Shown piece after piece: positions 23,257 to 42,382 of a stretch of DNA of 42,382 nucleotides. Each line of letters starts with the position of its first letter. Position 1 is the stretch's first letter. The notes below the pieces were generated by a model. It was not told the DNA's origin, searched no databases, and worked only from the letters and a program-made list of their open reading frames with translations. A program made the position numbers and the translations under genes. The DNA is taken from the IMG/VR virus record IMGVR_UViG_3300042372_000650, positions 1-42,382 of that record. One strand, given 5' to 3'. Origin of the DNA: a virus.

Positions 23257-24660
23257 GTGACCCAGACCCAGCCAGAGTCTGCCCTTGAGCCTGCCCCCAC
23301 GCAGGCGGGGGCCTTATCCCCCAAGTCCGCCCCTCAGCCCTCCGCCGTGCCAGAGGCTCGGCTAGAGCGCATGGCCCTAGTTGCTGGCCAGTCTAGCCTG
23401 CTTAGGCTGATCGCCCGCCAAGATTTTACCATATCAGACCTCGCCAAACAAACCGGGCGCGACCCATCCAATCTGCACAAAAGCCTTGGTCGCCTGCAGG
23501 CCGCAGGCCTGATCGAGCGGCCTATCGGCGGCGGCATGTGGAACCTGACCGAGACCGGGCGCAGCGATCTGGACGCCCTGAACCGCGCCCTGGACCCAGA
23601 CCCTGAGCAGGCGGACACACTACCCGGCTGGAAACTGATACCGCATGATCAGCTGATCCCCGGCTCTGCCGTCGGCAATAATCCGCGCACGGATTTTGAC
23701 CCCCAGGCGATCGACGCCTTGGCCGAGAGTATTGCTGATATGGGTCTTTTGCAGAACCTTGTCTGCTATCAGGGGCCAGATGGCCGCTATGTCCTGATCA
23801 GTGGTGAGCGCCGCTGGCGCGCCATCGGCCAATTGATTGCCGAGGAGACATGGCCGATCGAGCAGGGCATCCCCTGCCAGGTCATGACCGCGCCTATTGG
23901 TGCCGAGGATGTTCTGAAGCGGGACTATTTCGCCGCCGCCGTGGTCGAAAACATGGCGCGCGAGGATCTAAACCTGATCGATCAGGCCAAGGCCCTTGCC
24001 CGCCTGACCGCCATGGGCAAGAGCCCCAGCCAGATTGCCGGGCTGATCGGCAAGACGACGCGCTTTGTCCAGCTGCGCCTGCAGCTGTTGCAATGCGACC
24101 AAGGCACCCAAAACGATCTGGCCCTTGGCCTCATGACCGTCAACGAGGCCCTAGAAACCCTCCGCGCCCCCAAACGGCCCGCGCCGGAGCCTGTCCGGGA
24201 GCCTGTCCGGGATCCTGTCCGGGAGCCTGTCCAGGAGCCTGTCCCCGCGCAGGCGGGGACGAAGGCGGGGACGCAGGCGGGGACGCAGGCGGGGACGAAG
24301 GCGGGGGTAGCCCTAAGCGGCACCCTGACTGGCGTCAGCACCCTGTCCCCCAGCCCAGAGCCTGAGCCAGACCCTGCCGCGCCAAGGTTTGAGCACGAAA
24401 ACTATCAGGCGGTAGAGATTGCCAAGGCCCTATCCGACCTCGTGGATGCGCTGCTGCTGGCCGGGGCAGAGCCGCGGGTTCGCGCCCCCACCGCATCCCG
24501 TTGGCCATCCCTGCACATCCCCAGCCACGACACAGAGATCTTTGTTTTTGGTCCGAGCCGCTGGCCCCTTGTTGATCCCAACATCTTCGAAACCCGCATC
24601 AAACTGTGCGGCGTACCCGCCATCCAGCTCCTGACCGAACTGGTCCAGGGCAAACACTGA
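23257..24660 (+). CDS. Winged-helix/ParB-like fusion protein
   Basis: The start is GTG at 23257 with AGAAGGG upstream. Residues about 45-110 form a winged helix resembling MarR (ISDLAKQTGRDPSNLHKSLGRL, then a wing GGGMWNLTETG). Residues 125-200 form a ParB N-terminal CTPase-type domain with GERRWRA at 183-189; ENMAREDL follows at 231-238 and a DNA-binding HTH at 253-278 (MGKSPSQIAGLIGKTTRFVQ). Residues 311-350 are a linker of EPVR and AGTK repeats, followed by a 100-residue unknown domain. No ParA is present in the window, so it is probably a regulator or DNA-spreading protein rather than part of a full partition system. Confidence 0.85.
   Translation: MTQTQPESALEPAPTQAGALSPKSAPQPSAVPEARLERMALVAGQSSLLRLIARQDFTISDLAKQTGRDPSNLHKSLGRLQAAGLIERPIGGGMWNLTETGRSDLDALNRALDPDPEQADTLPGWKLIPHDQLIPGSAVGNNPRTDFDPQAIDALAESIADMGLLQNLVCYQGPDGRYVLISGERRWRAIGQLIAEETWPIEQGIPCQVMTAPIGAEDVLKRDYFAAAVVENMAREDLNLIDQAKALARLTAMGKSPSQIAGLIGKTTRFVQLRLQLLQCDQGTQNDLALGLMTVNEALETLRAPKRPAPEPVREPVRDPVREPVQEPVPAQAGTKAGTQAGTQAGTKAGVALSGTLTGVSTLSPSPEPEPDPAAPRFEHENYQAVEIAKALSDLVDALLLAGAEPRVRAPTASRWPSLHIPSHDTEIFVFGPSRWPLVDPNIFETRIKLCGVPAIQLLTELVQGKH
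24187..24306 (+). repeat. Ten in-frame 12-bp repeats in the parB-like gene
   Basis: Five units of the GAGCCTGTCCGG type (24187-24246) are followed by five of the ACGCAGGCGGGG type (24247-24306). They encode Glu-Pro-Val-Arg and Ala-Gly-Thr-Lys/Gln repeats, a flexible linker. The 12-mer ACGCAGGCGGGG also appears once near the start of the gene at 23299-23310, out in the N-terminal tail. Copy number is likely to vary. Confidence 0.85.
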
Positions 24661-24680
24661 CATCAACAGGGCACGGACCC

Positions 24681-24911
24681 ATGAAAGCTAAAAACATCAT
24701 CTCGATCACTGGCATTTACGATGATGACCCGATGAAAAGCGGGCTGATTGGCGCGAATATCGAGTTCATGAGCGCGCCGGGCTTTCCACCCTTAAGCCCG
24801 GACAATCTTGCTGGCATTGCGAAATCCCTAATCGAGGCCGCCAGTAACGTGATTAAGGCACAAGCCGCCCAACCCACCGAAATCCACCCCCCAGGGACCG
24901 GCGCGGCCTAA
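24681..24911 (+). CDS. Small hypothetical protein
   Basis: The ATG at 24681 gives 76 residues (MKAKNIISITGIYDDDP). The middle is Gly/Pro-rich and the C-terminal 30 residues form an amphipathic helix (LAGIAKSLIEAASNVIKAQ). No family recognised. It lies 20 bases after the ParB-like gene in the same operon. Confidence 0.55.
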   Translation: MKAKNIISITGIYDDDPMKSGLIGANIEFMSAPGFPPLSPDNLAGIAKSLIEAASNVIKAQAAQPTEIHPPGTGAA

Positions 24912-25981: not shown

Positions 25982-26619
25982 AGGTCCTCGTAGCCTGTGA
26001 ATTTTCGGGCATTGTCCGCCGCGCCTTTGCCGCGCGGGGCCATGAGGCTTGGTCGTGCGACCTGTTACCTGCCGAGGATGGCAGCAACCACCATTATGTC
26101 GGCGATGTCCGCGACATTCTGTACGATGGCTGGGACCTCTTGTTCGTCGCCCATCCGCCCTGTACGCGCCTCTGCAATAGCGGGGTCCGCTGGCTGTCTG
26201 TGCCGCCGCCGGGGCGCACCAAGGATCAGCTATGGGATGAGCTAGAAGCGGGCGCGGCCTTGTTTTCCACCCTCTGGAACGCCCCAGTTTCGCGCGTGGC
26301 GGTCGAAAACCCGGTCATGCATCGCCACGCCAAGGCCCGGATCGAAAACTATGAGGCCCCGGCCCAGAGCGTCCAGCCCTGGGAATATGGCGACTGGGAA
26401 ACCAAGCGCACCTGTCTATGGCTGCGCGGCCTGCCCGCCCTGATCCCGACCTATTCCACCCTGGACGCCGCGCGCGCGGGGCTCGGCCTCGCCAATGACG
26501 CCCAGCCCACAGCCCGCGTCCACCGCATGGCCCCCGGCCCCGCCCGCGCCAAAGAACGCAGCCGGTTCTTCGCGGGGATCGCCGAGGCCATGGCCTATCA
26601 ATGGGGGAGCGCCGCATGA
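25978..26619 (+). CDS. C5-cytosine methyltransferase-like protein
   Basis: This 213-residue protein has a Rossmann-type motif I (VLVACEFSGIVRRAF), an HPPCT motif at residues 59-63 with the catalytic Cys62 of C5-cytosine enzymes, and ENP at 110-112 matching motif VI. It is much shorter than restriction-associated C5 enzymes and lacks a clear target-recognition domain, as in phage DNA-methylase-like families. Action on DNA is probable but unproven. It overlaps genes on both sides by four bases. Confidence 0.75.
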   Translation: MKVLVACEFSGIVRRAFAARGHEAWSCDLLPAEDGSNHHYVGDVRDILYDGWDLLFVAHPPCTRLCNSGVRWLSVPPPGRTKDQLWDELEAGAALFSTLWNAPVSRVAVENPVMHRHAKARIENYEAPAQSVQPWEYGDWETKRTCLWLRGLPALIPTYSTLDAARAGLGLANDAQPTARVHRMAPGPARAKERSRFFAGIAEAMAYQWGSAA

Positions 26620-26876
26620 CCGCCCGCCCCCGCACCGGCCCGCGCCGGGGTCTGAACCGTACCGAGGCGGCAGACTATATCGGCATCAGTGTCTCGAAAT
26701 TTGATCAACTGGTCGCCGGGGGCCTGATGCCGCCGCCAAAATCGATTGATCGGCGCAATGTCTGGGACCTGTGGGCTCTTGACGTGGCCTTTGAGGCCCT
26801 GCCAGATCAGGCCGCACCCAATAGCGGGGTCAATGAATGGGACAGGAAGCTCGGCCTTGACCAATCTGCGGCTTAA
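26616..26876 (+). CDS. Excisionase-like MerR/AlpA-type HTH protein
   Basis: This 86-residue protein begins at the ATG at 26616, overlapping the upstream stop. The segment LNRTEAADYIGISVSKFDQLVAGGLMPPPKSIDRRNVWDL is the AlpA/HTH_17 fold found in phage excisionases and regulators. It originally abutted integrase, as shown by the repeat at its 3' end. Xis proteins bend att DNA and bias integrase toward excision. Confidence 0.78.
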   Translation: MTARPRTGPRRGLNRTEAADYIGISVSKFDQLVAGGLMPPPKSIDRRNVWDLWALDVAFEALPDQAAPNSGVNEWDRKLGLDQSAA

Positions 26877-26879
26877 ATA
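26852..26879 (+). repeat. 28-bp direct repeat, left copy (xis 3' end)
   Basis: This 28-base segment covers the last codons and stop of the excisionase-like gene and is perfectly repeated at 27235-27262. The two copies are 383 bases apart and bracket one gene. Confidence 0.92.
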
Positions 26880-26889
26880 GGAGTCAGAC

Positions 26890-27243
26890 ATGACCTATTA
26901 TTCTCATGACATGCTTTATGCCGAAGACCTGATTGCAGGCGGCCGCAATGCCCAAGACATAATATGGATGGCCGCAAAGATGGGCTTTCTTAAAGATTTA
27001 ATAGATTTCGCGCGGTTCTGCTTACTTGAATACATCGGGACATCGCTCGAGGCTTTTGATTTGGCGGACGACCTTATCAAAGTAAGGCGGGGTCAATTAG
27101 AAGCGACGTCGCCAGATTTTCAAGATGATGTTTTTAAAATTGTCGAGCGCATCATCGCGTTTGCTTTAAGCCGTGGTACGTCACAAGATGTTATTAACAT
27201 GAGGTTTTTAAGTGTATTTGGCCGCAGGGCACAGCGGCCTTGA
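26890..27243 (+). CDS. Cargo gene inserted between xis and int, unknown function
   Basis: This 117-residue protein has a good AGGAG site before its ATG. It is helical, with an acidic N-terminal half (MLYAEDLIAGGRNAQDIIWMAAKMG) and a C-terminal helix. Its GC is clearly lower than in both neighbours. It is bracketed by a perfect 28-base repeat: the left copy ends the excisionase gene and the right copy starts the integrase. Its stop TGA overlaps the integrase TTG. It is thus a late insertion that kept both flanking genes whole. No family recognised; a defence or lysogenic-conversion role is a guess. Confidence 0.72.
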   Translation: MTYYSHDMLYAEDLIAGGRNAQDIIWMAAKMGFLKDLIDFARFCLLEYIGTSLEAFDLADDLIKVRRGQLEATSPDFQDDVFKIVERIIAFALSRGTSQDVINMRFLSVFGRRAQRP

Positions 27244-27262
27244 CCAATCTGCGGCTTAAATA
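27235..27262 (+). repeat. 28-bp direct repeat, right copy (int 5' end)
   Basis: This is the second perfect copy of the segment at 26852-26879. It contains the stop of the cargo gene and the TTG start and first codons of integrase. Bases on either side differ between the copies, which fixes the repeat length at 28. Confidence 0.92.
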
Positions 27263-28488: not shown

Positions 28489-28812
28489 ATGCTTGAGACC
28501 TTGAAATGGATTGCGGCTAATGATGAAAATTTTGTCACCGTGGCCGGGCTAATGGTGATCGCAGCCCTTTGTATCCGAATTGTGCTTGAGGACTTACCCA
28601 GGGCCGAGCGGCCTAAAAAATCATGGCTGGCGGCCTTGCTAAAGCCGCTCATGGCGCGCGGCTATAGCGCCGATCTGGATGGAGGCCCAAAGGCCCCGCC
28701 AAGGGGTGGGTCGGCCACAGCCAAGGCCCAGCCCACCGGCAATGTCCACGCGCCGCGCGACGGGGCGGAACTGGGCGCGCCGCCGCATCAGGGATCAGGG
28801 GGGCAGAAATGA
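28489..28812 (+). CDS. Small single-pass membrane protein
   Basis: This 107-residue protein has a transmembrane segment at residues 16-35 (VTVAGLMVIAALCIRIVL), then a basic cytoplasmic-type helix, and a disordered Gly/Pro/Ala-rich tail. An AACGAGAGAAAG stretch serves as a purine-rich leader. It starts a group of small genes that overlap by four bases each. No family recognised. Confidence 0.55.
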   Translation: MLETLKWIAANDENFVTVAGLMVIAALCIRIVLEDLPRAERPKKSWLAALLKPLMARGYSADLDGGPKAPPRGGSATAKAQPTGNVHAPRDGAELGAPPHQGSGGQK

Positions 28813-28976
28813 GAATGACCCGAGCATCAAAGCGTCGCATCAAGGATAAACTCAGGCGCGGAGCTTGGGTGCCGCTTTGCCATATTGTCAATTACAACTT
28901 AACGCGCTGGATGGATCGCAACTTGCCAAATAGCACAACGGATTTTTATTTTCAGATTGTGAGGGCCTGGAAATGA
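28809..28976 (+). CDS. Short basic protein, 55 residues
   Basis: The frame from ATG 28809 to TGA 28974-28976 codes for 55 residues with many Arg and Lys and several Trp (LRRGAWVPLCHIVNYN, TRWMDRNLPNS). Start and stop both overlap neighbours as ATGA, which is the main support. Composition resembles a real protein. Function unknown. Confidence 0.48.
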   Translation: MRMTRASKRRIKDKLRRGAWVPLCHIVNYNLTRWMDRNLPNSTTDFYFQIVRAWK

Positions 28977-29167
28977 TAAGGTCCCACCCTAGCCCCCCAC
29001 CGAGCCAAAGGCTGCGCGACATTCGTGCGCGCCGCACGGTCTCCAGCGCCGCCGAGATAGAGCGCCAAAAATTAAATCTGAAAAACACGTTTCCCGTGTT
29101 GACAACATACAACGGTGTTGTATGCTCACTCATCGAAGCACGGGGACTGGCCCCGGGCCAAAGGTAG
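28973..29167 (+). CDS. Small hypothetical protein
   Basis: This 64-residue frame begins at an ATG overlapping the previous stop. Residues 11-35 are rich in Arg and Ser (SQRLRDIRARRTVSSAAEIE). Its 3' half is crossed by a promoter-like element at 29099-29126, so coding and control overlap, or the last part is not functional. No family recognised. Confidence 0.42.
   Translation: MIRSHPSPPPSQRLRDIRARRTVSSAAEIERQKLNLKNTFPVLTTYNGVVCSLIEARGLAPGQR
29099..29126 (+). promoter_or_regulatory. Promoter with palindromic operator in the spacer
   Basis: TTGACA at 29099-29104 and TATGCT at 29121-29126 are separated by 16 bases. Within the spacer lies a perfect dyad, CATACAAC at 29106-29113 and GTTGTATG at 29117-29124, around GGT. 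Just upstream, AACACG and CGTGTT (29084-29100) form another hairpin. A dimeric repressor bound here would block the -10 box. The genes at 29179 and 29529 follow. Confidence 0.68.
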
Positions 29168-29178
29168 GAAGACCTAAG

Positions 29179-29532
29179 ATGACATCGATTAATCAAATCA
29201 ATGCCGGAGTTATTGTTACCCAGACCCGCATGATGGGCCTTGGCCTTAATGATGCGCTCGGCATGGCGCATGAGGCGCGGCTTTTCAATGATCTGAACAA
29301 GGACGCCCACCGCGCCACTGTGGTCCGCTTGGTTAAGGCGATCTGGGAACAAGATGAGCGGGACATGGGCGAGGCCCGCCGCCTTTCGACGCAACTGGCC
29401 ATCAGCAATGAGCGCGCCGCCGCCAAGTTTGGCGACCGCTGGACCGCCGCACTAGCCCTTCCATTAGGCCGCAAGCGCCGCGACAAGCTGGCCAAGATGC
29501 GCCGGGCCGCCGACCCACGGGCGCAGGCATGA
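29179..29532 (+). CDS. Hypothetical protein under palindromic promoter
   Basis: The ATG at 29179 is preceded by AGGAAG and gives 117 residues. It is helical and rich in Met, Asn, Arg and Ala; the C-terminal 25 residues are strongly basic (GRKRRDKLAKMRRAA). It is the first gene behind the promoter at 29099 and overlaps an HTH gene by four bases. No family recognised. The arrangement resembles anti-CRISPR/Aca operons, but this is an analogy only. Confidence 0.62.
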   Translation: MTSINQINAGVIVTQTRMMGLGLNDALGMAHEARLFNDLNKDAHRATVVRLVKAIWEQDERDMGEARRLSTQLAISNERAAAKFGDRWTAALALPLGRKRRDKLAKMRRAADPRAQA

Positions 29533-29930
29533 CCCCCTTCACCCTCCTTCTCGGCGCAGCTGGCCTCTCACACAGAGAGGCCAGCGACTTTTTGCAGGTG
29601 CGCCTTGATACCATCCACGCTTGGTCAAGCGGTCGCAATAATTGCCGCCCGGCAGTGCTTACCGAACTGCGCGCCCTGATCCAAAAACAAGACCGGGCCG
29701 CGCGCGAGGCCATAGCCCAGATCGAGCAGGTCCGTAGCCAGCACCCCGCCGCCGAGATCGAGCTTGGCTATCCAACCGACGACCATGAGGCTCAGGGCCT
29801 CGGCTGGCCTTGCGTCGGCGCATGGCGGGCCATGGCCGCAAGGGTGGTGGTCGCGGCCCTGCCCGTGCGGCTGGTTCCGCGCGGCTCTAGTCTCGCCACG
29901 GCGGCGGCCATTGCCGCCCATGAGCCCTAA
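29529..29930 (+). CDS. HTH protein, possible autorepressor of its operon
   Basis: This 133-residue protein has a helix-turn-helix in residues 11-45 (LSHREASDFLQVRLDTIHAWSSGRN, then CRPAVLTELRAL) followed by a charged helix with KQDRAAREAIAQIEQV, similar in layout to short Aca/YdiL-type DNA-binding proteins. The rest is Ala-rich and less clear. It would be the natural candidate to bind the palindrome at 29106-29124. Its stop TAA overlaps the stop of the convergent methylase gene. Confidence 0.58.
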   Translation: MTPFTLLLGAAGLSHREASDFLQVRLDTIHAWSSGRNNCRPAVLTELRALIQKQDRAAREAIAQIEQVRSQHPAAEIELGYPTDDHEAQGLGWPCVGAWRAMAARVVVAALPVRLVPRGSSLATAAAIAAHEP

Positions 29931-36398: not shown

Positions 36399-36791
36399 CT
36401 AGACGCCGACCCCGGCAACCGCTGTGATCGCGTTTTGGTTGACGAGGGCGCGCAGGGCCTGAATGGCCAAGCCCTGACGCAGATTGGTCAGCTCCGCGAC
36501 AAGATCGGTCTCGCTCTGCGACTGGACCACCAGCTGGCCCTCAATGCTGAGAATTGCGGGCGCGCCATTTATCACCAGTGCGCGGCCATCGGCACTGCAG
36601 GCCGAAGCCGTTAATCGGATGATCTCACGCCCTAGGCTAGAGGCCGCGTGATCGTGGCGCGCCTTGATCTTGGCATGGCCCGTCAAGGCCCCAGTCAAGG
36701 CCAACACCGAGTCTTCTGGATTGAGGTTCTGTAAGGTGCTGGTGATGTCGGCGATTACCAGATCAGTAGTTAATAAGGGACCAGTTGGCAT
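36399..36791 (-). CDS. Hypothetical tail-associated protein
   Basis: This 130-residue protein overlaps the tip protein gene by 29 bases. It contains a strand region (DGRALVINGAPAILSIEGQLVVQS) followed by a helix (ETDLVAELTNLRQGLAIQALRALV). It likely belongs to the tip or fibre attachment. No family recognised. The 111 bases between its end and the next gene hold nothing coding that I can support. Confidence 0.62.
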   Translation of the reverse strand: MPTGPLLTTDLVIADITSTLQNLNPEDSVLALTGALTGHAKIKARHDHAASSLGREIIRLTASACSADGRALVINGAPAILSIEGQLVVQSQSETDLVAELTNLRQGLAIQALRALVNQNAITAVAGVGV

Positions 36792-39717
36792 CTATCAGAC
36801 TCCAATCGATTTCAAAGTTTATCCATGGGTCCAGACCCCCGAGCCCGCCGCCGCCGGTCCCCGTCGCTCCGCTGGCAGCGGTGTATCCGGTCGCGATATA
36901 GAGATACCGGGTCAGGCTGGTAAAATAGCCGGTGAGGCCAGTTGTAACCGCCAGATACGCATTGGTCTGGCGATCCCAAAACACCACATAGCCGGTAGCC
37001 GCAGCTAGGCCTGTAATCGTTGCGGCGGGCAGGCTATAGGACCCAGCTGTGGTGGCGATCACGGTGGAAGCCAGCGTCAGACTGTTGCCCGTGCTCGATG
37101 TGATAGGCTTAGGCGGCGTGAAGGTGTAACCGCTGCCGATTTGCAGATTAATGGGCAGATTCTGGATTGTCACATCCGCCGCAGGAGCGGAATCGGGTCC
37201 CGCCACCCAGGCCGGATGCGCGGTCTGGCTGGCCGTGGCGGCGCTGACCATGGGCTGGGCTAGGCTGAAAACAAAGGCCCCTGCGCCCAGCGTATAGATA
37301 TTGAACGCAAAGGCCGCGGCCACAGCATTGGCCGGAACCGTCACAAAGCCCTGCCCCTGAGTGCCAAAACTAGAATTGGCCGCGACACTAAAGGCCGCCA
37401 CTGTGCCAAGGCTTGCGCCCGCCGCATCATAAAAGGTCAGCTCAACCTGGCCTGCACCGTTCTGTGCCTCGACCAGGGCCTGGACAGACAATCGCTCGAC
37501 CGCCTTAACCGCAAACCGAAAGGCTGGGGCCGCAAACAAGACAACCGCCTGATTAGCCGCCGAGGCCGTGCCCCCCAGCCGGGCCGGATAGCGGCCAAGA
37601 TAGCCATTGGGCCAAAAATTAGTCAGGGTCGGATTGCGGGCCGTGGGATCATAGACCGCCCAGCCGGTCAGTACCCCAGCCTCCCAGCGGCTATAGCGCA
37701 GCCGATTGACCGCCGCTGGCACCACCAGGGCATTATTGATATCGTTTGGCCCCAGACCGCCGATCGACACCACCAGGGCATTATTGATATCGTTTGGCCC
37801 CAGACCGCCGATCGACCCCACCGACAACTCGCCCGTACTGGCGGCTGTACTGACCCAAGCACTATAGGTCAGGTCGCGCTCGGGGCTGGTCAAGACCGCG
37901 CCGCGCACCTGATAGACATAGCCGCCAATGACGCCATCGCTCAGGACCAGGCTGACCGTGGAGCCACTAACCGCCTCGGTTGGGCGCAGGGCGAACTCCT
38001 TAACAAAGGTCTGGGCTGCCGCAGCGGGCAGGCCCTGGACCCGGTATTCAAGCCTGAGCGTCACCGCGATCGTATCGGTAATGGCGGTATAGGTCACGGC
38101 CAGGGCCGGGATCTGGGTCGCGCCCTGGGCAATCGTGGTGGCCGCAACCGTCAGGCCCGTAACCGCCGAGCCGGTAATCAGGGCGCTGGACAGGTCGGTC
38201 GCGACGGCGGGGTCGAGCTGATCGGTCGCAGCGGTCCAGCTATAGAGGCTGGAATCCACCTCGCCCAGGGCTAGATTGACCGCCAAGAAATCATCGCCAT
38301 CGGTTGTGATATCGATCGGGGTGATCTCAAACGTCTTGGTCCAGCCATAGCGGGCGCTGGTCCAGCTAATCCAGTCGCCCGGCTCTAGATCCATATGCTC
38401 AGGCGCCAAAGCCATCTTGGCCGCGCGCATGCGGCGGCCCCGGCGGCGATGGATTTCCTGCACCCTTTGGCCCTGGGTGCCGCTGGTGACATAGCTTAAT
38501 TCATAGGTCTCGGCCTTGCGCCCGCCGTCTGTGGCCTCATCGGCGCTGGATAGGCGCGCAGGCAGGCTGATCGGCTGATAATAGGCCGAAGGATCGGCAA
38601 ATCGGCCATAGACCGCATTAACCGTCTCATCCAGCGGCTTGTCCTGGGTATAGCTGGAGCTGACATCGATGCGGATATCGTCATCTGTGATATATTTTAC
38701 AACCGACTGGGCCACGCCCGGCAAGATGCGCCAGCGTCCCGGCCCCGTGGTCAGCTTGCCCGCCATGGCCGCCAGCACATCCTCGGCCACCTGGCGCGGG
38801 GTCGCTGCGACACTAAAGACGCCGCTGGCCCGGTAGCGCTTTTCGCTGCCGCCCGCCTTTAGGCTGACCAGCTCATCACAGGCATTCATGGCGGCAATAT
38901 TGGGGGCAAAGGGCATATCGCTATCGCCAAGGCCGGGCCCAAAAATCAGATCGCGCTGGCGGCTGGCCACCGCCGTGCCCGTATCCTCAGCCCCCATGCC
39001 GCGCAGGAGATTTTCCAGCACCACGGCGGCATTATCGCTCCAGGTCCAGCTGGCCTGATCATTGGCCCTTTGGCTGCCCGACCCGCCGACCGAGCCATCA
39101 AGGCGGCGGTCATAAAGCTTGGCCCCCTTGATCTCATACAGGAACTGAAACAGGCCGCTTAGGCCCTCGCCGTGCGCCTTTTCATTATAGCGCGCCTTGA
39201 CCTTGACATAACAGACCCCGCGCCCGCGATCATTGGCGGTCCAGCGCCCGCCACTGACACTGATCAGCTCACTATCGGCGGCCTGATTCCAGTCGCCGCC
39301 ATAAAACGTGATCCAAAGATTATGGCGGCCATCGGCATAATAGTCTTGGACCGAGCCGTCCCCGTTCAGGGTCAGCCGCTTGCCATTATTCCAGACCCCA
39401 ACCAGGCTATCGCAAGGGTGGTCCGCCAGCGCAAACAACAGGATGATATATTCATTTTTCGCGCCCCAGGTCTGGAACGTCACCAGACTGCCCGCCGTGG
39501 CGGTCTGGCCAACCACACAGACCCGGTTTTGATTCGGATCCAGGCTGACCTGCAAACTATCGCCCCGCCAGCCGCTTTTAGGCTTGGGGGTCAGGGCCTT
39601 GGACACAGCCGATAGGGCCACGGTCGCGATCAGCTGGACGCCAAGCGTCTTGATCGCAGCGGCGCTGAAAACCTTGACCGCAACAAACTTGACCGCGGCG
39701 ACGACGATTTGAGGCAT
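36763..39717 (-). CDS. Tail tip/host-specificity protein (gpJ/GTA gp15-like)
   Basis: This 984-residue protein follows the DUF6950 peptidase gene, the place of the large hub/fibre protein. The N-terminal 45 residues are hydrophobic helices; then segments such as FGPGLGDSDMPFAPNIAAMNACDELVS and RRRGRRMRAAKMALAPEHMDLEPGDWISW match phage tail tip proteins of the gpJ type. From about residue 540 it is beta-rich with fibronectin-like repeats. Near residues 630-665 a 16-residue segment is exactly doubled. The C-terminal 300 residues probably carry host contacts. Length is usual for the family. Confidence 0.87.
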   Translation of the reverse strand: MPQIVVAAVKFVAVKVFSAAAIKTLGVQLIATVALSAVSKALTPKPKSGWRGDSLQVSLDPNQNRVCVVGQTATAGSLVTFQTWGAKNEYIILLFALADHPCDSLVGVWNNGKRLTLNGDGSVQDYYADGRHNLWITFYGGDWNQAADSELISVSGGRWTANDRGRGVCYVKVKARYNEKAHGEGLSGLFQFLYEIKGAKLYDRRLDGSVGGSGSQRANDQASWTWSDNAAVVLENLLRGMGAEDTGTAVASRQRDLIFGPGLGDSDMPFAPNIAAMNACDELVSLKAGGSEKRYRASGVFSVAATPRQVAEDVLAAMAGKLTTGPGRWRILPGVAQSVVKYITDDDIRIDVSSSYTQDKPLDETVNAVYGRFADPSAYYQPISLPARLSSADEATDGGRKAETYELSYVTSGTQGQRVQEIHRRRGRRMRAAKMALAPEHMDLEPGDWISWTSARYGWTKTFEITPIDITTDGDDFLAVNLALGEVDSSLYSWTAATDQLDPAVATDLSSALITGSAVTGLTVAATTIAQGATQIPALAVTYTAITDTIAVTLRLEYRVQGLPAAAAQTFVKEFALRPTEAVSGSTVSLVLSDGVIGGYVYQVRGAVLTSPERDLTYSAWVSTAASTGELSVGSIGGLGPNDINNALVVSIGGLGPNDINNALVVPAAVNRLRYSRWEAGVLTGWAVYDPTARNPTLTNFWPNGYLGRYPARLGGTASAANQAVVLFAAPAFRFAVKAVERLSVQALVEAQNGAGQVELTFYDAAGASLGTVAAFSVAANSSFGTQGQGFVTVPANAVAAAFAFNIYTLGAGAFVFSLAQPMVSAATASQTAHPAWVAGPDSAPAADVTIQNLPINLQIGSGYTFTPPKPITSSTGNSLTLASTVIATTAGSYSLPAATITGLAAATGYVVFWDRQTNAYLAVTTGLTGYFTSLTRYLYIATGYTAASGATGTGGGGLGGLDPWINFEIDWSLIDANWSLINY
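37721..37816 (-). repeat. Exact 48-bp tandem duplication in tip protein gene
   Basis: The units 37721-37768 and 37769-37816 are identical. They encode a doubled 16-residue Gly-Leu-Gly-Pro-Asn-Asp segment in the linker between the beta-rich region and the C-terminal domain. Identity with no silent change means the duplication is recent or kept by recombination. Confidence 0.95.
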
Positions 39718-40136: not shown

Positions 40137-40831
40137 TAGCGAAAGGATCCTAGATTTAGACCGCCACGGCCAAGGCCAAGGCCCAGCCCGGCCAGATTGG
40201 CCCCGCCACCATTAATACTGGCAGCGGCCTTAATCGGCGACGATGACCCATCCTTGCCCCAGCTGATCTGGCTCTTGCCCGCCGTATTGACATCTTTGTA
40301 AAACCCGTCGCCCGCGCGATGGGTCTTTTGGTCTGTATCTGAGCGGGTGCGGACGCCCGAGCGCTCCATTTCCGAGGTCGCGGCGGTCAGGGTCAAGGTC
40401 AGGGTCGAGACGGTTGGCTTATCGGGCTCGCCAGGCCTTTGCGCGGCCATGGCATGGGTCACCACCTCCATCTTGCCCGAGGCCAAGAGCACTTCTTCAA
40501 ATGGCTGGCCCGTGGTCGGATCCAGAAACAAGAGCGCCATCTCGGCGCTGCGGCCCCGGTAAACCTCATTGAAAAACGTATTTAAGACCGCCGGGTCCGT
40601 CCCCGACAGGCTGATATTGGACCCCTGGCCCCGGCCATCGGTTGTGATCGCACCCGGATCTAGCACCAGGGCCTCGCCAAAGGCGGTATAGGTAAAGCCG
40701 CCCCAGACCAGGTTTTCCTCGCCGTCACAGACCCGGTAAAGCCCCGATTGCAGATTAAGCCGCGCAATGGTGCGCACACCAAGGCTGGAGCCTGCAAGGA
40801 CGGATTTAAGAGCATTGGAAAAGGTGCGCAT
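40136..40831 (-). CDS. DUF2163 baseplate hub protein (RcGTA gp13-like)
   Basis: This 231-residue protein begins MRTFSNALKSVLAGSSLGVRT and carries ITTDGRGQGSNISLSGTDPAV and RSDTDQKTHRAGDGFYKDV, which resemble DUF2163-type tail hub proteins. The C-terminal 30 residues are Gly/Leu-rich. It lies between the distal tail protein and the peptidase, as in GTAs. The start overlaps the upstream stop as TGATG. The left-edge fragment at 1-135 is its diverged counterpart. Confidence 0.82.
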   Translation of the reverse strand: MRTFSNALKSVLAGSSLGVRTIARLNLQSGLYRVCDGEENLVWGGFTYTAFGEALVLDPGAITTDGRGQGSNISLSGTDPAVLNTFFNEVYRGRSAEMALLFLDPTTGQPFEEVLLASGKMEVVTHAMAAQRPGEPDKPTVSTLTLTLTAATSEMERSGVRTRSDTDQKTHRAGDGFYKDVNTAGKSQISWGKDGSSSPIKAAASINGGGANLAGLGLGLGRGGLNLGSFR

Positions 40832-41517
40832 CAGGTCTGGACCGATAGGGCTTCAAACTGGGCCGCGCCCTGGCGATGGCCGCCAGAGCCGAGCACAGCG
40901 ATTGAGAAAGGGGCCAAGAGCTTGAACTTGGCGCAGGCCCGGTAAAAATTAAGCGTGGCGGCGGCGGTAAAGCCATTGGGCAGTTCAGGCTCGACATAAA
41001 GCCCGGTTATGACCCCAAGCGCGCTGGCCCGGGCCGCCTCGCTAATCCGGTGCAGGCTGTATTTGCCCGACTGGATCACCGAGACATAATCGCCAAGCGA
41101 AAGCATAAACAGGGCGGGCAGGCCCGACAGGCCGATCTCATTGCGAAACGTGCTGATCTGGGTCAGGCTGGCCGTGCCATCGAAAACGGACGCACTTCCC
41201 GCGCGCAGCAGGACCGAGGGGCCCATGGGCATATAGGCGGCGGGATATTCGCGCGCCGGATCAAAGCCCAAAAAGGTGCGGGCCGAGCCTTGCAAACTAT
41301 CGCCCCAGGCGCGCCAGGCCCCCAGATCAGCGGGATAGAGCGGCGGCGTCTTCCAGCTGGCCTTCCATTGTGGCCGACCCCGATCGATCGTGACATCGCG
41401 GCCCGATTCCAGGACCCCAACCGCCTGGCGGCGGGTCAGGACAAAATTGGCCTCGATAAACCGCACCCCGGTCGAGAGCATGGCGGGAAAGGGGCGCGGA
41501 AAGCTGGGAACCGTCAT
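40831..41517 (-). CDS. Distal tail-like protein, right copy
   Basis: This is the counterpart of the gene at 135-821, with the same length of 228 residues, the same coupling overlaps and about five amino-acid changes (for example Ile to Met in YMPMGPS and Leu to His near the C-terminus). It leads directly into the complete DUF2163 gene, whereas the left copy is cut by the window edge after it. Only one of the two is likely to exist per genome. Confidence 0.7.
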   Translation of the reverse strand: MTVPSFPRPFPAMLSTGVRFIEANFVLTRRQAVGVLESGRDVTIDRGRPQWKASWKTPPLYPADLGAWRAWGDSLQGSARTFLGFDPAREYPAAYMPMGPSVLLRAGSASVFDGTASLTQISTFRNEIGLSGLPALFMLSLGDYVSVIQSGKYSLHRISEAARASALGVITGLYVEPELPNGFTAAATLNFYRACAKFKLLAPFSIAVLGSGGHRQGAAQFEALSVQT

Positions 41518-42382
41518 CGGGTTGCCCTAGAATAGGCGTTGGCATTGGCGACCCAGCGCTCGGCTTCAGATTTTTTCCATTGATCGAGCTGATCGGAGAC
41601 GCGCTGCAGGGCCGCAGGATCAGCCCCGGCGGCATTAATAATCTTGCGATTATCAATATTCACCACCTGGCCGCCGCGAACCGGATTCGCCGCGCCTGCG
41701 CCCGCGCCCTGACCCAGGCCCTGTATCAAACGCCGGGTGCGGTCGGCGCTATAGACCATGCCGGGCTGGGTAAAATCGACGAGTTCTGGGCCGCGCTCGC
41801 CGACCAGGGTGGTGCCATAGGCCATGCCGCCAGACGCTCTTGCGGGGATGGGGGACGGGCTAAAGCCGCCGCCAAACAGGCTGCCCAAGAGACTGCCAAA
41901 CAGGCCGCCGCCGCTGCTGCGCGCCGGACCGGCCGTGCTACCGCCTAGGCCCGAGCCCATAAACCCGCCGCTCGAGCCGCCGCCAAAGCCAAACGCGCCC
42001 AGGATCGAGCCCAAGAGGCCAGAGCCGCCGGGGCTGGAGCCCGCCTTGGTCATCAGGGCCTTGGTGATGGAATCGACCAGGCCTTCAAATACCTGGTTGC
42101 GCATCCGGTCGACAAAATATTTCAAGGCCCCCTTGGCCCCGCCGTCAAAGCCTGCCGCCAGCCCGCCCGATACCGCCTCACGCAGGGCCGAATAGGTCTG
42201 GTCGCGCGAGTCCGAAAAGCCCTTGACCAGATTGTCGCGCGCGGCGGTCGAGATGGGTTCTAGGACCGATTTCCAATCGACCGCTTTTAGGTCTTGGCCC
42301 GTTAGGTCGACCATGGTTGAGGGAATAATCGTTGCCGGGCTGGACGTGTCGGCATTCCAAGGCAGGGCTGGGCGGCTAGACT
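41514..42382 (-). CDS. Tail tape measure, C-terminal fragment cut by window edge
   Basis: The frame is open to the right edge of the window, so the gene is incomplete. It corresponds to the C-terminal ~289 residues of the tape measure at 818-2929, including the Gly-rich stretch and the GERGPELV motif. Two Gly codons of the Gly-rich stretch are missing compared with the left copy and the frame is kept. A few residues near the Gly-rich part and the C-terminus differ (for example AASG for AAGG). Confidence 0.88.
   Translation of the reverse strand, partial: SSRPALPWNADTSSPATIIPSTMVDLTGQDLKAVDWKSVLEPISTAARDNLVKGFSDSRDQTYSALREAVSGGLAAGFDGGAKGALKYFVDRMRNQVFEGLVDSITKALMTKAGSSPGGSGLLGSILGAFGFGGGSSGGFMGSGLGGSTAGPARSSGGGLFGSLLGSLFGGGFSPSPIPARASGGMAYGTTLVGERGPELVDFTQPGMVYSADRTRRLIQGLGQGAGAGAANPVRGGQVVNIDNRKIINAAGADPAALQRVSDQLDQWKKSEAERWVANANAYSRATR

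Follow-up and report, generated by a model that had tools for sequence, protein, structure and literature searches.

A one-gene insertion between the overlapping xis and int genes of a temperate phage, flanked by a perfect 28-bp direct repeat

Genes and repeat at the xis–int junction

The window, i.e. the whole 42,382-bp stretch analysed here, is the metagenomic contig of virus record IMGVR_UViG_3300042372_000650. It encodes, among others, a tyrosine integrase, a head protease/major head fusion, a tail fibre, a ParB-like protein, an ATP-dependent ligase and DNA methyltransferases, and is, judged by its sequence, a temperate tailed phage of an alphaproteobacterial-type lineage. Its two ends (1-1692 and 40697-42382) overlap by 1.69 kb at an identity of just 94%, and the window probably represents a circular genome of about 40.7 kb in whose assembly two co-occurring strains were mixed. 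The features at the junction of xis and int are listed below in window coordinates, where the inserted gene is referred to as the cargo gene and G001 is a near relative described in the next section.

26616..26876, + strand: xis/AlpA-like HTH gene, 86 aa, intact, with a TAA stop at 26874-26876 (PHROG profiles)
26844..26849, + strand: AGGAAG, int Shine-Dalgarno sequence of the cargo-free allele, within the xis 3' end and just outside the duplicated 28 bp (sequence)
26852..26879, + strand: first copy of the 28-bp direct repeat, covering the xis 3' end and the 3 bp after it
26879..26883, + strand: AGGAG, cargo Shine-Dalgarno sequence, 6 nt before the ATG, its GGAG part lying in the insert (duplex -6.8 kcal/mol)
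26880..27234, + strand: unique inserted DNA, 355 bp, 45.4% GC, absent from G001
26890..27243, + strand: cargo gene, 117 aa, orphan, predicted six-helix protein (ORF, structure model)
27235..27262, + strand: second copy of the 28-bp direct repeat, covering the int 5' end and the 5 bp before it, which gives the cargo stop codon
27240..28313, + strand: tyrosine integrase gene int, 357 aa, TTG start overlapping the cargo stop as TTGA (PF00589, 5.4e-19)

The product of xis matches phrog_25900 (4e-8) and phrog_66 (excisionase and transcriptional regulator, 0.0056), and its match to NCBIfam TIGR01764 (excise) stays below the cut-off. All 28 bp of the direct repeat, CGGCCTTGACCAATCTGCGGCTTAAATA, are identical between its copies at 26852-26879 and 27235-27262, which have a spacing of 383, and by chance the window should contain about 6e-8 such exact pairs. 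An initial annotation of this DNA had described a perfect 28-bp repeat contained in both the end of xis and the start of int, with both genes intact, and the exact match and the two open reading frames bear this out. The 383-base interval given there holds as the spacing of the repeat, whereas the unique insert measures 355 bp. The low-GC 117-codon gene with its own ribosome-binding site was likewise recovered (ORF at 26890-27243, preceded by AGGAG): the GC content of the insert is 45.4% versus 61.7% for the window, among the lowest 0.3% of same-size windows, so that its base composition differs from that of the surrounding phage genes, as looked for in accreted accessory genes. End redundancy aside, the only other exact repeats of at least 20 bp in the window are a short tandem array of a 12-bp unit (GGCGGGGACGCA) at 24248-24299 in the ParB-like gene, whose copy number differs from that in G001 by 36 bp, in frame, and an exact 48-bp tandem duplication (16 codons in frame) at 37720-37815 within the tail-fibre gene at 36763-39717.

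The final 9 bp of the cargo ORF, including the stop codon, lie inside repeat copy 2, where the cargo TGA overlaps the int TTG. As + strand ORFs of at least 110 aa arose in just 9 of 5000 shuffles of the insert, and the AlphaFold model made from the single sequence reached a pLDDT of 75.9 and a pTM of 0.71 with an all-helical, six-helix fold, the ORF is very probably a real gene. In a consensus scan that is weak for this host, the insert contained no + strand promoter-like match and one terminator-like match, which lies inside the ORF (mean of the shuffles 1.2). Since neither a + strand promoter match nor a terminator above chance level turned up, cargo is most likely co-transcribed with xis and int, and it would be translated from its own AGGAG within a xis-cargo-int transcript. 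In the cargo-free allele AGGAAG stands 7 nt upstream of the int TTG; it was not duplicated and is no longer next to int when the site is filled, where the Shine-Dalgarno energy upstream of int is -3.3 kcal/mol compared with -4.8 kcal/mol in the empty allele. On these energies, translation of int may have shifted from the AGGAAG within xis to coupling, through TTGA, with the stop codon of cargo.

The empty allele and the direction of change

The near relative IMGVR_UViG_3300042308_001934 (G001; L002 in the locus survey) is about 93% identical to the window at this site, and its integrase is 97% identical to that of the window. The assembly of 40,638 bp has an exact 127-bp end overlap and is thus circular. 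It carries the 28-mer once, and xis runs directly into int through a 20-bp overlap, from the int TTG to the xis TAA; the insert is thus present in the window, while in G001 nothing separates these two genes. When the window flanks are joined across the insert, 480 of 517 positions are identical to the empty allele, colinear and without indels, from which it follows that the window equals the empty allele plus 355 bp plus the duplicated 28 bp. A search of IMG/VR with the 28-mer returned matches in G001 only, and this genome is the one close relative that covers the insertion site (n=1). The perfect identity of the two repeat copies, at a length of only 28 bp, would date the insertion event weakly.

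Relatives of int with 38-55% identity were gathered from IMG/VR and from alphaproteobacterial prophages. In the loci with intact ends, about 30 in number, int directly follows or overlaps a small xis-like gene: the overlap runs from +23 to -7 bp and is mostly 4 bp (ATGA or GTGA), and no gene intervenes in any of them. Among named phages, xis and int overlap by 1 bp in phi2LM21 and by 4 bp in Pan3, and are separated by a gap of 9 bp in Rivra. No homologue of cargo is present in any of the approximately 30 distant loci or in these three phages. The survey automatically took the ORF abutting int, so that the cargo gene of the window was itself labelled 'xis', and it yielded no usable xis for L008 and L123; the truncated loci L007, L128, L129 and L137 were left out, which is why the count is given as about 30, and some of the loci surveyed partly overlap or are near-identical (L006/L133, L101/L103, L004/L106).

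Because G001 is empty, the roughly 30 distant loci have no intervening gene and cargo is missing from all of them, the insertion reads, in this comparison of sequences, as a gain in the window lineage. The initial annotation had proposed that xis and int overlapped in the ancestor and that an insertion duplicated this overlap, and had suggested looking for a cargo-free relative; G001, with its direct overlap and single 28-mer, is such a relative, and together with the cargo-free loci it supports the proposal. An empty allele thus exists, and no conserved family always present at this place was found. The reverse polarity, with a filled ancestor from which G001 lost the gene by recombination between the 28-bp copies, would suit the perfect repeat, which lends itself to precise deletion, and the empty allele looks exactly like the product of such a loss; it is nevertheless very unlikely, given that xis adjoins int in every distant relative whose ends are intact, and a cargo homologue occurs in none of them.

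The distant loci also revealed two families of small proteins, seemingly unrelated, whose genes lie immediately upstream of the integrase genes of this family; one is HTH AlpA/Xis-like and the other of about 60 aa with the sequence 'TQADVARAI'. Both share a C-terminal N[E/P]WD tail, found within the last 20 aa in 12 of 15 and 7 of 13 members, respectively, with varying synonymous codons (scope: window 26830-26876, i.e. the xis C-terminus, and loci L102, L104, L106-L109, L111, L112 and L114-L122). In a profile comparison of the two families the tail was the sole aligned stretch, and the signal was gone after its removal. This tail may be an Int-docking peptide or a junction at which xis types are swapped.

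Sister insertions and the origin of the repeat

Between the window and G001, at least three further single-gene insertions are found in the operon, with flanking duplications of 7, 104 and 413 bp. The first of them lies in the window.

28809..28976, + strand: another small cargo gene (55 aa) that G001 lacks, at an ATGA overlap with a 7-bp GAAATGA duplication; either gained by the window or lost from G001

The other two lie in G001. A 131-aa gene, cargo B, stands in front of xis, where 104 bp of xis are duplicated and the first xis copy is truncated; between the two copies there are 8 mismatches in 104 positions, as though two parents had contributed. A pentapeptide-repeat gene (PF00805, 2.3e-30) is flanked by 413-bp direct copies that are 99% identical and correspond to window positions 29157-29569, most of an upstream gene having been duplicated. 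In each of these three cases the neighbouring genes on both sides were left intact, and in all three of the cases in which cargo and following gene touch, the stop codon of the cargo is given by the start of the next gene (TTGA, ATGA, ATGA). For cargo B, no relative was found outside its own genome; a match to the PADLOC 2TM effector (5e-4) was treated as spurious, as it covers a coiled-coil-like stretch. G001 contains GACGTCATGAC at exactly two places (rotated coordinates 6178 and 6570), once where cargo B starts and once where the next xis copy starts, and the window lacks it; the start region of cargo B recurs at the beginning of the gene behind it.

Taken together, duplications of 7, 28, 104 and 413 bp exclude a target-site duplication of fixed size; their length is variable and at least that of the gene overlap, as would be expected if illegitimate recombination were followed by selection of products in which the neighbouring genes stay intact. 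It is the spread of the sister scars, from 7 to 413 bp, that separates selection on gene overlap from target-site duplication. We consider it the best explanation, with a probability of about three in four, that illegitimate recombination inserted a one-gene segment of 355 bp between the overlapping xis and int and thereby duplicated the overlap. The ancestor would have had the two genes overlapping by 20 bp, from the int TTG to the xis TAA. Recombination with little or no homology, between co-infecting relatives or with unknown DNA, would then have joined the left arm to the new gene 3 bp past the xis stop, and the end of the new gene to the right arm 5 bp before the int start, so that the two arms overlap and 28 bp are present twice. 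Survivors would be only those products that kept both overlapping genes whole, which sets the duplication at no less than the 20-bp overlap; the observed 28 bp equal the overlap plus 8. Since both neighbours must stay whole and share 20 bp, the repeat is explained as a scar of overlap plus selection rather than as a target-site duplication. No microhomology was demonstrable at the junctions.

A single unequal crossover would need one illegitimate event: a second parent would have carried cargo in the xis position immediately upstream of int, the xis-side left arm would have been fused at int codon 8 to the DNA directly preceding cargo in that parent, and the repeat would consist of two int 5' ends. 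The 104-bp duplication in G001, with its copies differing at 8 of 104 positions, resembles such an event. The repeat, however, reaches 5 bp upstream of the int start into the xis-specific CGGCC, which is expected by chance at about 0.1-0.2%, and no phage with cargo in the xis position was seen among the approximately 30 int loci; we regard this route as unlikely.

Besides recombination, for which the sister duplications speak, the initial annotation had left room for an unnamed mobile route, and this part found no support. A self-mobilising element, moving by transposition or by site-specific recombination and with the 28 bp as its target duplication or attachment core, would account for the perfect direct repeats and the low GC content. 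Yet a single orphan ORF fills the insert, which has neither a recombinase domain nor terminal inverted repeats spanning it; there is no second copy in the window or in G001, and no relatives occur in the IMG/VR, phage or plasmid collections. The transposase or inverted-repeat ends and the constant short duplication typical of transposon- or IS-like elements are thus missing, the neighbouring insertions having duplications of 7, 104 and 413 bp, and we regard this origin as extremely improbable.

An assembly artefact was also considered, in which the assembler, misled by a short repeat, would have spliced foreign DNA into the contig. The window is metagenomic, and the 94% identity of its 1.69-kb end overlap indicates that strain mixing did occur in the assembly. 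Against this, two whole genes, an in-frame stop codon placed on the int start codon and a Shine-Dalgarno sequence at 6 nt would be an unlikely accident, and the circular assembly of G001, closed by its exact end overlap, shows the same type of insertion elsewhere in the operon. An artefact is therefore highly improbable.

Under illegitimate recombination, the perfect repeat should also permit precise loss of cargo by recombination. We further speculate, as a rather unlikely extension, that overlapping gene boundaries are recurrent, self-repairing docking points, and that cargo, reversibly present or absent, acts as a switch that also moves int translation from coupling with xis to coupling with cargo. 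If so, genes would enter at start/stop overlaps, their neighbours would keep working and the perfect repeat would allow clean loss.

The cargo protein and analogous insertions

How phages acquire single genes while keeping tightly overlapping operons intact is mostly deduced from old junctions that have become scrambled; at this locus both alleles, the polarity and the exact scar are visible. The prediction that follows is that a scar is never shorter than the gene overlap. An early-expressed accessory role in anti-defence, exclusion or host modification is the usual expectation for such added genes.

No relatives of the 117-aa protein were found in IMG/VR, GenBank phages or plasmids, in 385 genomes of the Reyranella-centred class, or in all 142 fetched loci. 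The protein belongs to no Pfam, PHROG, PADLOC or NCBIfam family (a PHROG match of 0.17 is not significant), it has no sequence or fold match in the PDB and no viral fold match (best E about 0.6-2), and Rfam gave no matches. As an orphan adjoining int it is an accessory-gene candidate, and the anti-defence or lysogen function suggested in the initial annotation is putative. We tentatively favour an accessory role, most likely an early anti-defence, exclusion or host-modifying one, at about one chance in three; otherwise cargo may be a neutral passenger.

The closest precedents come from mycobacteriophages. In LRRHood, 1.35 kb (genes 43-46) lie between 29-bp direct repeats, a sequence of which Cali has one copy (Pope et al., 2011; PMC3029335). 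As in that case, accessory DNA is present here in one of two close relatives, with direct repeats of about 28-29 bp that are single-copy in the empty genome and one copy of which ends the upstream gene; two perfect copies surround the insert of the window and one is present in G001. Unlike LRRHood, where four genes are concerned, the present insert holds one orphan gene, the gain is settled and the repeat coincides with a gene overlap. The insertion of gene 68 in Island3 involves a 60-bp sequence common to the 3' ends of genes 67 and 68 (PMC3029335); there, too, a small orphan gene was added in one of two near-identical phages, and a gene end is duplicated in both cases. In Island3, however, the copies end two successive genes, whereas here the duplicate is the overlap of xis end and int start. 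The polarity of neither mycobacteriophage case could be settled by Pope et al. (2011; PMC3029335). A likeness to phage morons (as conceived in PMC3029335) lies in the single low-GC ORF between two genes that are adjacent in relatives; typical morons, in contrast, have their own promoter and terminator, and none is apparent here, the gene having only its own Shine-Dalgarno sequence and looking operon-embedded. We thus file cargo only as an accreted accessory gene and not as a classical moron. This is a known way of phage gene acquisition, and what is new here is that the polarity is settled and the repeat is explained by gene overlap.

A further difference between the two genomes was observed at window positions 24668-24884, where one small ORF stands in place of two genes (about 1.17 kb) in G001; one of these encodes a DUF2303 protein, and the boundaries of the swap lie at gene edges.
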